Assembly (NCBI RefSeq): GCF_003610785.1
Contig: NZ_RAQQ01000001.1
Coordinates: forward strand, 62,001-126,000
DNA: 64,000 nucleotides
Direction: 5' to 3'
Source of the DNA: Micromonospora globbae
GTDB lineage: Bacteria; Actinomycetota; Actinomycetes; Mycobacteriales; Micromonosporaceae
This document shows positions 49,797 to 58,164 of the stretch, one piece after another. Made by a program: the position numbers and the translations under genes. Position 1 is the stretch's first letter; the number at the start of each line of letters is the position of its first letter. The notes beneath the pieces are model-generated. The model was given only the letters and a program-made list of their open reading frames with translations. It searched no databases and was not told where the DNA came from.

Positions 49797-50495
49797 TCAG
49801 CCCGCGCAGCGGTCGGAGAGGGCGTAGCGGACGAGCACGACGTCACCGATCTGGCGGACCTCCGCGACGGTGGCCCGCCGCCCCGGATGCCACGGGTACC
49901 GGCCGTCGGAGACGAAGCGCGGCGCGCGGCAGTCGCCAACGAAGAACGGCGCGACGACGAGGTGCAGCTCGTCGGCGAGGCCGGCCGCGAGGAACTGCGC
50001 GTGCACGGTCCCGCCGCCCTCCACCATGAGCCGGCGTACGCCCCGGGCCGCGAGGTCGGCCAGCACGGCGCCGAGGTCCACCGGCTCGCCGGCGTCCACC
50101 ACGTCGGCCAGGCGGCCGACCCGCTCCCGGGTCTTCTCCAGCGCGCCCGTCGCGCAGTACACGACCCGCTCCGCCTCCCCCGCCGTGAAGAACCGGGCGG
50201 CCGGGTCGAGGTCGCCGCGGGCCGTGATGGTCACCTTCGCGGGCGTGGCGGGCAGGCCCCGCTCCGCCCGGTCGGCGCGGCGCCGGGCCGACCGCACGAG
50301 CAGCCGCGGGTCGTCGCGGCGGACGGTGCCCGCGCCGACCATGATCGCGTCGCAGCTGGCCCGTACGGCGTCGATCCGGTCGAGGTCGTCGTCGTTGGAG
50401 AGCAGCAGCCGCTGGTCGGTGGCGTCGTCGATGTAGCCGTCGATGGAGGTGGCGCAGCTCAGCAGCACGTACGGCCGCGCGGGCCGGGCCGTCAC
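49797..50495 (-). CDS. RibD C-terminal domain (dihydrofolate-reductase-like) reductase
   Basis: A 232-residue stand-alone reductase domain of the bifunctional RibD family, lacking the deaminase half. YVLLSCATSIDGYIDD, VGAGTVRRDDPRLLVR, and RRLMVEGGGTVHAQFLAAGLADELHLVVAPFFVG are signature segments. In riboflavin synthesis RibD reduces the ribosylamino-pyrimidine made by GTP cyclohydrolase II, which is the adjacent upstream gene; GTGA overlap couples them. No ribB, ribE or ribH is present, so I infer that the intermediate goes to another product, although a duplicate riboflavin step cannot be excluded. Confidence 0.85.
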   Translation of the reverse strand: MTARPARPYVLLSCATSIDGYIDDATDQRLLLSNDDDLDRIDAVRASCDAIMVGAGTVRRDDPRLLVRSARRRADRAERGLPATPAKVTITARGDLDPAARFFTAGEAERVVYCATGALEKTRERVGRLADVVDAGEPVDLGAVLADLAARGVRRLMVEGGGTVHAQFLAAGLADELHLVVAPFFVGDCRAPRFVSDGRYPWHPGRRATVAEVRQIGDVVLVRYALSDRCAG

Positions 50496-51145
50496 CGGAC
50501 GGCCGGGAGGTCGGGGGTACGCGCCGCGCGGCTGGCCTTGGCGGCCAGGTAGTCGGCGTTGGCCGGGGAGAGATACAGCCCGGTCGGCACCCGCTCGGTC
50601 ACCGCCACGCCCAGCCGGTCGAGCTGGACGGCCTTCTCCGGGTTGTTGCTGAGCAGCGCGATGCCCGTCACGCCGAGGGTGGCGAGCATCTGCGCCGCCG
50701 CGCTGTAGTCCCGCTCGTCCTCGCCGTGCCCCAGTGCCACGTTCGCCTCGTACGTGTCCAGCCCGGCGTCCTGGAGCGCGTACGCGTCGAGCTTGGCGTA
50801 CAGGCCGATCCCCCGGCCCTCCTGCCGCAGGTAGAGCAGGAAACCGCCGGCCTCGGCGATGCGCTCGACCGCCTCGCGCAACTGCGGGCCGCAGTCGCAG
50901 CGCTGGCTGCCGAAGACGTCGCCGGTGAGGCACTCGCTGTGCGGGCGTACCAGCGGCGCGGGGCCTCCCGCCGCGTACCGGTCGAGCGCGCCGGCCCAGT
51001 CGCCGAGCCCGAACGCCACGTGCTCCCGGCCGTCCACCAGCCCCTTGAAGGTGAACAGGCGGGCGCTCGTGGCGTACCCGTCCGGGAACTTCAACGGCAC
51101 GGTCACCTGGGTGCGGATGGTCGCGACAGGGAGTGCTTCGGGCAT
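50492..51145 (-). CDS. ribA: GTP cyclohydrolase II
   Basis: A 217-residue stand-alone GTP cyclohydrolase II that opens and removes formate and pyrophosphate from GTP to form a diaminopyrimidine ribosyl phosphate. Zinc ligands lie in SECLTGDVFGSQRCDCGPQL (Cys-x10-Cys-x-Cys), followed by LRQEGRGIGLYAKLDAYALQDAGLDTYEAN, NVALGHGEDERDY and LLSNNPEK, all full-strength family motifs. The RibB half found in many bacterial RibBA fusions is absent. ATG 51145 with GGAGAAG 3 bases ahead. It is the sixth of seven minus-strand genes and links the operon to a guanosine-derived pyrimidine or pterin. Confidence 0.93.
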   Translation of the reverse strand: MPEALPVATIRTQVTVPLKFPDGYATSARLFTFKGLVDGREHVAFGLGDWAGALDRYAAGGPAPLVRPHSECLTGDVFGSQRCDCGPQLREAVERIAEAGGFLLYLRQEGRGIGLYAKLDAYALQDAGLDTYEANVALGHGEDERDYSAAAQMLATLGVTGIALLSNNPEKAVQLDRLGVAVTERVPTGLYLSPANADYLAAKASRAARTPDLPAVR

Positions 51146-56335: not shown

Positions 56336-58164
56336 TGCCGCGGCGGGACGGCACCGGCGTTCCGGGGCGCGCCGGCGGGCGCCGGCCACCCACGACAGCG
56401 CCCACGGAGACGGCGATTCCGGCGGAGACGGCGCCGGCCGTTCCGGCGGAGGCTGCGCCAGCCTCGGTCTCGGCGGATGCGGCGCCGGTGGCACCGCCCG
56501 CGGAGGTGGCGCCGTCTCCGGTCCCGGACGCCGGTGCCGGCCGGAGGTGGCGGCGCGTCGCCTCCGGGGTGCTCACCGCCCTCGCCGGGCTGCTGGTCCT
56601 CGCCGTCCTGCTCGCGCCCGACCGCACCGACCGGCTCTCGGCCGGCACGTTCCTGCGGATCCCCCTCGAAGCGCTCCTCGGCCTCGCCCTCCTGGTCGCC
56701 CTGCCGGCGCGGGGGCGGCGCGTGGCCGTGCTGACCGCCGGGCCGGCGCTCGGCGTGCTGGCCGTCCTGAAGGTCGCCGACCTGGGCTTCCACGCCGCGC
56801 TGGACCGGCCGTTCGACCTGGTGCTGGACTGGGCGCTGCTCGACGACGCCGTCGGCTTCCTCGGCGACGCGGCCGGGCGGGCCGGCGCGCTCGCGGCGGC
56901 GGCCGGCGCGGTGCTGCTCACCGGGACGCTGCTGGTGCTCCTGACGCTCGCCCTGCGGCGGGTGGCCCGGCTGGTGGCGCGGCACGACCGGGCCGCGGCC
57001 CGGACGGTCGCCGCGCTCACCGTGGTCTGGGTGGCGTGCGCGGCGTTCGGCGTCCCGGTGGCCGACAGCGGGACCAGCTCCCTCGTCGGGTCGCACGCCG
57101 CCGAGGTCCGGGAGCGGCTGCGCGACCGGGGCGCGTTCGCCACGCGCATCGCCGCCGACCCGTTCGCCGACACCCCGGGCGACCAGTTGCTCACGGGCCT
57201 GCGCGGCAAGGACGTGGTCCTCGCGTTCGTGGAGAGCTACGGGCGCAGCGCGATCGAGGATCCGGGGCTCGCCGCCGAGGTCGGTCCGGTGCTCGACGCC
57301 GGCTACCGGCGGTTGCGGGCGGACGGGTACGCGGCCCGCAGCGGCTTCCTCACCTCCCCCACGGCCGGTGGCGGCAGCTGGTTGGCGCACGACACGCTCC
57401 TGTCCGGCCTCTGGGTCGACAACGAACAGCGGCACCGGTCGCTGCTCGCCAGCGACCGGCTCACCCTCAACGGCGCGTTCCGGCGGGCCGGCTGGCGCAC
57501 CGTCGGGGTGATGCCGGCGGCCACGCAACCCTGGCCGGAGGGCGCGTTCTTCGGGTACGACGGCTACTACGACACCGCGCGGCTCGGCTACCGGGGTCCG
57601 ACGTTCGCGTACGCGCCGATGCCCGACCAGTACACGCTCGCCACCTTCGAACGCACCGAACGGGCCCCGGCCGACCGGCCCGTGATGGCGGAGATCCCGC
57701 TGATCTCCAGCCACTCGCCCTGGACCGAGGTGCCCCGCCTGATCGGCTGGGACGAGGTGGGCGACGGCTCGGTCTTCGCCGGTGCCGCCGCCCGGGACAC
57801 GCTCCCGGGGGACACGGTGGGGCGGGCCGAGGCGCGGGCGGGCTACCGGCGGGCGATCGCGTACTCGCTGCGGACGCTGGTCTCGTACGTCGAGACGTAC
57901 GGCGACGACGACCTGGTGCTGGTGTTCCTCGGCGACCACCAGCCGGCTCCGGTGGTGACCGGCCCGCACGCCGGCCGGGACGTGCCGGTCACCGTCGTGG
58001 CCCGGGATCCGGCCGTCCTCGACCGGATCGCCGGCTGGGGCTGGCAGGAGGGGCTGCGTCCCGGGCCGGACGCGCCGGTCTGGCCGATGGACGCCTTCCG
58101 GGACCGCTTCCTCACCGCGTTCGGGCCGGCGGGCCACGCGGCGGCCGCCCACCCGGCCCGCTGA
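56335..58164 (+). CDS. Membrane sulfatase-fold phosphotransferase (LtaS/phosphoglycerol-transferase-like)
   Basis: A 609-residue protein. An Ala/Pro-rich N-terminal tail (to about 66) precedes four hydrophobic helices (75-225), then an extracellular alkaline-phosphatase/sulfatase domain. VVLAFVESYGRSAIED is the nucleophile-strand region and the metal site lies in VFLGDHQPAPVVTG. There is no Cys-x-Pro-x-Arg formylglycine site, so it is not a classical sulfatase but a phospho-, phosphoethanolamine- or glycerophospho-transferase. Its ATG shares a base with the phosphatidyltransferase stop, implying that it modifies that lipid outside the membrane. Confidence 0.85.
   Translation: MPRRDGTGVPGRAGGRRPPTTAPTETAIPAETAPAVPAEAAPASVSADAAPVAPPAEVAPSPVPDAGAGRRWRRVASGVLTALAGLLVLAVLLAPDRTDRLSAGTFLRIPLEALLGLALLVALPARGRRVAVLTAGPALGVLAVLKVADLGFHAALDRPFDLVLDWALLDDAVGFLGDAAGRAGALAAAAGAVLLTGTLLVLLTLALRRVARLVARHDRAAARTVAALTVVWVACAAFGVPVADSGTSSLVGSHAAEVRERLRDRGAFATRIAADPFADTPGDQLLTGLRGKDVVLAFVESYGRSAIEDPGLAAEVGPVLDAGYRRLRADGYAARSGFLTSPTAGGGSWLAHDTLLSGLWVDNEQRHRSLLASDRLTLNGAFRRAGWRTVGVMPAATQPWPEGAFFGYDGYYDTARLGYRGPTFAYAPMPDQYTLATFERTERAPADRPVMAEIPLISSHSPWTEVPRLIGWDEVGDGSVFAGAAARDTLPGDTVGRAEARAGYRRAIAYSLRTLVSYVETYGDDDLVLVFLGDHQPAPVVTGPHAGRDVPVTVVARDPAVLDRIAGWGWQEGLRPGPDAPVWPMDAFRDRFLTAFGPAGHAAAAHPAR

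Follow-up and report, generated by a model that had tools for sequence, protein, structure and literature searches.

What does a second GTP cyclohydrolase II (GCH II) do beside a riboflavin-type reductase, a glycosyltransferase and membrane enzymes? This question is raised by nine genes at positions 49797-58164 of a 64,000-nucleotide stretch of Micromonospora globbae DNA (contig NZ_RAQQ01000001.1, positions 62,001 to 126,000), hereafter the window. From the gene families and their co-evolution, we propose that this unit turns GTP into a pterin-type molecule independently of GTP cyclohydrolase I and then decorates it, a reading that we favour while stopping just short of calling it probable. 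The decoration is predicted to comprise glycosylation and methylation, and lipid linkage in those lineages that have a CDP-alcohol phosphatidyltransferase (CDP-AP).

A conserved unit and a second GCH II-reductase set

The first-pass annotation had described seven minus-strand genes facing two plus-strand genes, and all nine open reading frames (ORFs) were recovered:

49797..50495, minus strand: RibDc, a stand-alone RibD_C reductase of archaeal type (Pfam RibD_C, 151 bits)
50492..51145, minus strand: GCH2, the second GTP cyclohydrolase II in the genome (Pfam GTP_cyclohydro2, 188 bits)
51205..52206, minus strand: flippase-like UPF0104/LPG_synthase_TM membrane protein (Pfam LPG_synthase_TM, 92 bits)
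52203..53012, minus strand: S-adenosylmethionine-dependent methyltransferase (Pfam Methyltransf_25, 35 bits)
53009..54091, minus strand: GT4 glycosyltransferase (Pfam Glycos_transf_1, 92 bits)
54088..54486, minus strand: PTPS-IV, a protein of the pterin-synthase fold (Pfam PTPS, 85 bits; PDB 3d7j)
54490..55470, minus strand: MDR dehydrogenase, usual zinc-site motifs missing (Pfam ADH_zinc_N, 32.2 bits; cut-off 31.8)
55562..56335, plus strand: CDP-AP (Pfam CDP-OH_P_transf, 48 bits; full motif)
56335..58164, plus strand: 'LtaS-like' membrane protein of the alkaline phosphatase/sulfatase superfamily (Pfam Sulfatase, 26.8 bits; cut-off 25)

With the starts chosen, PTPS/GT4, GT4/methyltransferase, methyltransferase/UPF0104 and GCH2/RibDc overlap by 4 nucleotides each, MDR and PTPS are spaced by 3 nucleotides and UPF0104 and GCH2 by 59, and the CDP-AP and sulfatase-like ORFs have one base in common. 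These two plus-strand genes diverge from the other seven across a gap of 91 nucleotides (55471-55561). Family scores are weaker for the methyltransferase, for the MDR, which is barely above the Pfam cut-off, and for the 'LtaS-like' protein. The closest named relatives of the MDR are from Micromonospora costi (87%).

Co-occurrence in distant genera had been proposed as the sign of a real unit, and this was borne out by a survey with the MDR alone as bait, which gave 166 loci from Actinomycetota to haloarchaea with 156 distinct MDRs (10 Rubrobacter-group loci were drawn twice). Up to 20 kb of surroundings per locus, cut where contigs ended, were searched on stop-to-stop frames with profiles made from the window proteins and three neighbours. 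Scoring MDRs were present in 43 of 396 genomes of a phylum sample (E 1e-20) and in 64 of 394 genomes of a class sample (E 1e-60), the window genome included in both. A species-genome collection scanned with an alignment of Rubrobacter-type MDRs yielded at least 593 stretches and at least 529 relatives, of which the best 80 of 529 were used: 30 from Chloroflexota, 21 from Actinomycetota, 16 from Pseudomonadota, eight from haloarchaea, two from Thermomicrobiota, and one each from Acidobacteriota, Verrucomicrobiota and Thermodesulfobacteriota. This selection biases the sample outside Actinomycetes.

The genes are not scattered in relatives: PTPS follows MDR on the same strand within 300 nucleotides in 147 of 152 loci where both are present, and the two form the closest gene pair of the unit. 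All nine families occur together in 9/166 loci, window included. The 64 Actinomycetes loci (window included) contain PTPS (64), GT4 (62), methyltransferase (56), CDP-AP (56), UPF0104 (55), GCH2 (53), a creatininase-family gene (40), RibDc (20) and the sulfatase-like gene (15). Loci from other Actinomycetota classes (n=22) all have RibDc, PTPS and GT4, with FolB in 17, a PlsC-like acyltransferase in 16 and GCH2 in six; 11 further Actinomycetota contigs, not drawn twice, have RibDc and PTPS (nine each), GT4 and FolB (eight each) and GCH2 (one). Pseudomonadota loci (n=16) hold RibDc (16), GCH2 and PTPS (15 each), GT4 (14), methyltransferase and CDP-AP (nine each) and the sulfatase-like gene (two); the UPF0104 model, built on actinobacterial rows, misses gammaproteobacterial copies found by Pfam, which detects LPG_synthase_TM in Pseudomonadota loci L144 and L140. 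The numbers for Chloroflexota (n=30) are RibDc 23, PTPS 22, GT4 21, GCH2 13, FolB nine and PlsC-like six, and for haloarchaea (n=8) PTPS and GT4 six each, CDP-AP four, and GCH2 and RibDc zero. The MDR-PTPS-GT4 core is thus shared by Actinomycetota, Chloroflexota, Pseudomonadota and haloarchaea. Bacterial loci usually add GCH II, the reductase or both, and often methyltransferase and CDP-AP as well. No scoring MDR, PTPS, GT4, methyltransferase, UPF0104 or CDP-AP was found in 38 core-less windows (574 kb), a non-random set around RibDc, FolB or other genes that includes two stretches of the 64-kb window; a 39th (L246) was excluded as the far end of a cluster. We conclude that this is a genuine unit, conserved well outside the genus and beyond what chance would give.

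Some single loci deviate from this layout. The MDR match at G437:C5:15606-16574 (in L177) contains one in-frame TGA, a Chloroflexia cluster (L210) has two PTPS-IV genes about 4 kb apart, and an MFS transporter gene adjoins the Chloroploca cluster. In a search for virus-borne copies, 29 stretches fitted the pattern, and no relative of the window PTPS was encoded by any of them (single close-relative query).

The reductase and GCH II of the unit are a dedicated second set. At the locus there are indeed no other rib genes, as the first-pass annotation had noted (by Pfam, none of the nine is a deaminase, ribB, ribE or ribH gene), whereas the genome (7.09 Mb, 95 contigs) carries ribBA at C23:72664 and ribH at C23:72070. 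The latter is the single lumazine synthase match of the genome, and ribBA scores higher with GTP_cyclohydro2 than the cluster GCH2 does. Since ribBA and ribH lie elsewhere in the genome, the cluster GCH2 and RibDc are not the riboflavin genes, in agreement with the idea that they serve a special product.

From GTP to a proposed diaminopyrimidine branch point

The window GCH II has, by alignment, a Tyr in the motif KLDAYALQD at the position of Escherichia coli Tyr105, and we take it to be the equivalent of that RibA residue, which is required for full GCH II turnover. Among the 91 cluster GCH IIs compared (including one identical pair, L060/L078), 42 come from clusters with a creatininase-family gene, and the Tyr is missing in 42/42 of these (Met in 27, Leu in eight, His in five and Gln in two) and kept in 49/49 of the loci without this gene. 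Two loci (L173 and L191) were moved to the creatininase-positive group after a wider search located the gene there, at distances from the MDR of about 10 and 14 kb. The single neighbour protein tested scored 208 bits with Pfam Creatininase. A restriction of the gene to Streptomyces-type loci was considered and rejected, as loci of family f92 also carry it.

In the GCH II tree, the 42 Tyr-less proteins lie on one side of a weak branch (support 56/81), and the loss of Tyr is therefore regarded as one evolutionary event; independent origins were sought and none was shown, the tree needing one change. The window GCH II belongs to a different clade (support 100/100) and has no creatininase neighbour, so that on this tree the GCH II slot is filled by distinct GCH II lineages. 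The correlation between Tyr and creatininase (42/42 versus 0/49) is new here and probably has one origin. BrbF, annotated as creatinine amidohydrolase, was shown to deformylate the formyl intermediate (PMC9478397). In Streptomyces-type loci, GCH II would go no further than this formyl compound, leaving removal of the formyl group to the creatininase-family neighbour, and both kinds of cluster should end at the deformylated diaminopyrimidine.

The reductase resembles archaeal enzymes more than RibD. Its best NCBIfam model is TIGR01508, the archaeal reductase (141 bits, under the cut-off of 186), and it matches PDB 5xux (106.9 bits, 1.4e-29) and 6p8c, a 2,5-diamino-6-ribosylamino-pyrimidinone 5'-phosphate reductase (92.6 bits, 3.2e-25), better than RibD 2b3z (49.6 bits, 4.7e-12). 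We predict that this archaeal-type protein, which is without a deaminase domain, converts 2,5-diamino-6-ribosylamino-pyrimidinone 5'-phosphate (DARPP) to 2,5-diamino-6-ribitylamino-pyrimidinone phosphate (DARIPP). In a tree of 36 reductases the cluster proteins fall into two well supported groups; on this topology the archaeal-type cluster reductase derives from at least two lineages, which is new here. With a single deaminase query (phmmer), a deaminase was found near just 4/166 loci.

No scoring RibDc was detected in 20/25 clusters of family f5 and 20/20 of f92. An unlinked RibDc orthologue (53-61% identical) is present in all nine searched Streptomyces-type or f92 genomes with a RibDc-less cluster, fused to a deaminase in four Streptomyces-type genomes and next to one in five f92 genomes; G319 and G323 have a more distant RibDc inside the cluster. 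Four Streptomyces-type genomes (L199-L202) encode a reductase-deaminase fusion whose domains stand in the opposite order to those of RibD, and another GCH II gene lies 0.7-0.9 kb away; the ORF overlapping RibDc at L108 6760-7875 (Dehalococcoidia) also matches the deaminase query, like ordinary RibD; and three f4 loci with MDR and PTPS and without a GCH2 or RibDc match (L051, L195, L196) have a deaminase-like ORF at the same locus. The window itself contains a second, distant RibD_C-family protein 1.3 kb past the unit (59490-60134, minus strand; Pfam 49 bits), which is probably a general DHFR-like reductase.

In archaea, DARIPP is a normal riboflavin intermediate. If it is the branch point, the lack of GCH2 and RibDc matches in the eight haloarchaeal loci, also new here, is expected, because DARIPP is ordinary there. 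The distribution of GCH2 and RibDc would then fit one branch-point metabolite, an evolutionary argument that points to DARIPP and to a pterin-type ring.

Proposed ring closure and decoration, and competing products

The predicted model of the MDR (predicted local distance difference test score 92) has secondary-alcohol dehydrogenases among its best fold matches, acting on threonine (3-), L-idonate (5-), xylitol or sorbitol. Of the catalytic motifs of zinc alcohol dehydrogenases, CxxD and GHE, a text search of the MDR relatives found the former (first 70 residues) in 0/166 and the latter in 1/166. From the modelled fold, we predict that the enzyme oxidises a secondary alcohol.

The adjoining PTPS aligns over its whole length with PDB 3d7j (E 1.7e-67), the stretch FGPAQRLHGAT being present in both, and contains the FGPAQ signature of PTPS-IV; in the other rows shown, FGPA occurs in Rubrobacter and Chloroflexota and GPE or GAE in archaeal and gammaproteobacterial proteins. 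The C-terminal pterin-anchor Glu, which presumably holds the 2-amino-4-oxo ring, is kept in 158 of 160 rows. As the catalytic residues of QueD we take Cys27, the zinc ligands H16, H31 and H33, and the Asp70-His71 pair. The Cys occurs in 0/160 cluster proteins (Ala 131, Glu 28, gap 1), the alignment column being defined by chain 4ntk, where the residue is Ala (it is Cys in 2oba). At the zinc positions the window protein reads H, H, A; the first His is retained in 158/160 rows, and the third site is Ala (63) or Val (one) in the 64 Actinomycetes rows and His in 95/96 rows elsewhere (one gap). The Asp-His pair is T-Y in the window, with Asp kept in 13/160 rows and His in 3/160. By alignment, the window protein thus does not have the set of residues of a catalytic PTPS or QueD (Cys, three zinc His, Asp-His).

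At the predicted lipid end, GT4 scores 78 bits with TIGR03449 (MshA), far under the cut-off, and its PDB relatives are 6kih, 3c48 and 7qsg, the last a D-inositol 3-phosphate glycosyltransferase. The CDP-AP motif DxxDGxxAR(x7-9)GxxxDxxxD is complete in all 70 loci with a scoring copy, window included; NCBIfam matches of the protein are weak and far under the cut-offs, and PDB matches are weak as well. The name 'LtaS-like' could be upheld at superfamily level, since the protein reaches only Pfam Sulfatase, but not as LtaS, because no NCBIfam match (E 0.01) or PDB sequence match (E 0.1) was obtained. In Actinomycetes and Pseudomonadota, GCH II and the reductase are accompanied by glycosyl-, methyl- and CDP-alcohol phosphatidyl-transferases. 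On the favoured reading the product would be glycosylated and probably lipid-linked. A PlsC-like acyltransferase accompanies 16/22 loci of other Actinomycetota and 6/30 of Chloroflexota; in these groups, which gave no CDP-AP match, the lipid step may be lineage-specific, may be carried out by another gene, or may lie outside the pathway.

A further link to pterins is FolB (dihydroneopterin aldolase), found beside the unit or in its operon in 17/22 loci of other Actinomycetota and 9/30 of Chloroflexota. In Chloroploca, FolB, RibDc and MDR form an operon with a 4-nucleotide overlap each. FolB is single-copy in 26 of the 28 genomes searched and absent in two, and the cluster copy is the only FolB in 9/9 Rubrobacter-group genomes searched. 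Also in favour of a pterin, and new here, is the operon FolB of some Chloroflexota, among them five cluster-bearing genomes (G735-G738 and G752) that gave no FolE, FolE2 or FolK match.

Taken together, we propose the following route. GCH II would open GTP to DARPP, with the formyl group removed by the creatininase-family protein in Streptomyces-type loci, and the archaeal-type reductase would produce DARIPP, a 2-amino ribityl compound. There is no deaminase, and therefore the 2-amino-4-oxo ring of a pterin would be kept. Next, the MDR would act on the ribityl chain, turning C2' into a ketone and so giving the Amadori product via reduction and oxidation. PTPS-IV, in which the pterin-anchoring Glu is kept but the catalytic residues of PTPS are not, would then join N5 to C2' in a ring closure that yields 7,8-dihydroneopterin 3'-phosphate or a close relative. 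FolB may trim the pterin product where it is in the operon, and GT4, methyltransferase, UPF0104 and CDP-AP may decorate it and place it at the membrane.

Several observations weigh against this route. Genes of the MDR-PTPS-GT4 type occur in four f4 loci (L051, L195, L196 and L198) where neither GCH2 nor RibDc was matched, no RibDc orthologue was found in the two of these genomes searched (best E 9.4e-5 and 9.6e-6), and such loci do not fit easily to a DARIPP branch point; RibDc is linked in just 20/64 Actinomycetes loci. The pattern of Tyr and creatininase fits one evolutionary change and hence a single independent pair, two of its rows were reassigned after the wider search, and G690, whose GCH II has the Tyr, holds an unlinked creatininase homologue (54% identical). 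Some fold matches of the MDR are reductases, e.g., 8b26, and the catalytic role of PTPS is only putative because one zinc His is lost in Actinomycetes. No CDP-AP was detected in other Actinomycetota (0/22 loci) or Chloroflexota (0/30), and a lipid anchor is therefore not shown to be universal. FolE is present in 40/48 cluster genomes, so that FolB may simply be a folate enzyme. FolB without FolE also occurs off-cluster: within the Chloroflexia sample this holds for 7 of the 13 genomes that have FolB and lack a FolE match (another, G780, is undecided owing to a short contig), and the FolE-less assemblies come without stated completeness. Finally, G739 has the core, GCH2 and RibDc together with two FolK matches, and no FolE, FolE2 or FolB match.

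The strongest competitor, a broader version that goes back to the first-pass annotation and that we nevertheless consider unlikely, is that the head group is the ribityl-diaminopyrimidine itself, PTPS-IV merely binding it, the MDR modifying the chain, and CDP-AP and GT4 making a pyrimidine glycophospholipid. DARIPP would indeed be the outcome of GCH2 and the reductase, the catalytic Cys of PTPS is gone from 160/160 rows and the second residue of its Asp-His pair from 157/160, the CDP-AP motif is complete in 70/70 copies, GT4 and methyltransferase are conserved, and the GT4 relative 7qsg uses a phosphorylated acceptor. However, FolB in the 17/22 and 9/30 loci mentioned above points to a pterin, and CDP-AP is not universal. 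Less likely again is a lineage-specific secondary metabolite cluster with a pterin- or deazapurine-like product and no membrane role. Its patchy occurrence (64/394 class and 43/396 phylum genomes), the decoration by GT4 and methyltransferase, and the MFS transporter gene beside the Chloroploca cluster would suit such a cluster, but the gene content is common to several phyla and archaea, CDP-AP and UPF0104 are kept in most Actinomycetes loci, and CDP-AP in 9/16 of Pseudomonadota.

We regard as very unlikely an alternative folate route, in which GCH II, RibDc, MDR and PTPS-IV stand in for FolE and supply FolB on the way to tetrahydrofolate. It draws on five cluster-bearing Chloroflexota genomes with operon FolB (G735-G738 and G752, i.e., Thermoflexus, two Roseiflexaceae and two other Chloroflexota) in which FolE and FolE2 were not found, but FolK was not found in these five either, the window genome has two FolE matches as well as FolB and FolK, and FolE is present in all 16 Rubrobacter-group genomes searched. 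A general replacement of FolE was rejected on the 40/48 count given above. Chloroflexota loci with FolB and no FolE, FolE2 or FolK match are L124, L125, L116, L132 and L136; three haloarchaea without FolE have PF02649. Lastly, a reserve or stress-regulated riboflavin branch, in which GCH II and the reductase top up precursors next to unrelated neighbours, is highly improbable and was rejected even though GCH II and RibD_C are riboflavin families, as the nine genes lack a deaminase, ribB, ribE and ribH, ribBA and ribH lie elsewhere, MDR, PTPS and GT4 co-occur without GCH2 or RibDc in 6/8 haloarchaeal loci, and there is no Rfam match, and hence no FMN riboswitch, at window positions 44000-64000.

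Around the unit, the window encodes a 563-aa protein that adjoins it (47979-49670, minus strand; no Pfam match at E 0.001), an Oxidored_molyb-domain protein (44768-46117, plus strand) followed by a major-royal-jelly/SGL-type protein (46118-47827, plus strand; start provisional), and an Fpg/Nei-type DNA glycosylase (62253-63014, minus strand; H2TH 46 bits).

Significance and relation to known systems

Our proposal of a decorated pterin-type product can be extended to an undescribed further pterin route shared by bacteria and haloarchaea, running from GCH II or archaeal GCH III via the ribityl compound, its re-oxidation at C2' by the zinc-less MDR and closure to dihydroneopterin phosphate by PTPS to a glycosylated and methylated, membrane-anchored redox or light-sensing pterin glycolipid on a phospholipid; this we put forward as speculative and, in its entirety, unlikely. 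If true, GTP cyclohydrolase I would no longer stand alone among entries to pterins in this respect, and membrane molecules of a new class would be expected in soil actinomycetes, phototrophic Chloroflexota relatives, Gammaproteobacteria and haloarchaea. The solved, functionless protein SCO6650 and a paralogous GCH II gain a proposed pathway context across two domains of life and a named branch-point metabolite.

SCO6650 of Streptomyces coelicolor (PDB 3D7J), with which the window PTPS aligns over its whole length, was deposited as an uncharacterised protein; Spoonamore et al. (2008) reportedly observed no PTPS activity and assigned no function. SCO6655, the GCH II paralogue of S. coelicolor studied by Spoonamore and Bandarian (2006), reportedly carries Met in place of Tyr105, which makes it halt at the formyl stage. 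In this feature it resembles the Streptomyces-type cluster GCH IIs, which are predicted to stop there likewise; in contrast, the window GCH II keeps the Tyr, belongs to another clade and has no creatininase neighbour. In the folate bypass of Chlamydia (RibA, TrpF), the GCH II product reportedly becomes dihydroneopterin phosphate by an Amadori-type step. Here, a reductase and a dehydrogenase would act instead of TrpF.

In the archaeal riboflavin route, the reductase acts before the deaminase. The unit resembles the archaeal ArfA-ArfB-reductase and BrbF systems in that GTP is opened and then deformylated by a separate enzyme (PMC9478397). Unlike in those steps, the product here is not expected to proceed to riboflavin, and MDR, PTPS and GT4 come after. 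The PTPS-IV subfamily of COG0720, with its FGPAQ signature, has been described with PF00925 and PF01872 neighbours for a 561-sequence cluster (PMC5445326). In the passages seen of this and a second paper, PF00925 is called GTP cyclohydrolase I (PMC5445326, PMC5041015), and an unpublished link of PTPS-IV to archaeal F420 is mentioned in the latter (PMC5041015). MDR, GT4, methyltransferase, CDP-AP, creatininase and FolB, all found here, are not mentioned for PTPS-IV in those same passages (PMC5445326, PMC5041015). Judged mostly from titles and listings, no paper was found that names the whole unit or assigns it a product. In this respect the first-pass view of an undescribed pathway stands, while the PTPS-IV structure 3D7J and the PF00925/PF01872 neighbourhood are already known.

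The closest analogue of the lipid end is synthesis of the phosphatidylinositol-mannoside type, which uses a CDP-AP, an acyltransferase and a GT4 enzyme. Comparable pairs occur here, namely CDP-AP with GT4 in Actinomycetes and the PlsC-like acyltransferase with GT4 in Rubrobacter. Unlike in that synthesis, CDP-AP and acyltransferase are found in separate lineages, no inositol gene was identified, and the head group would be a pterin or a pyrimidine.

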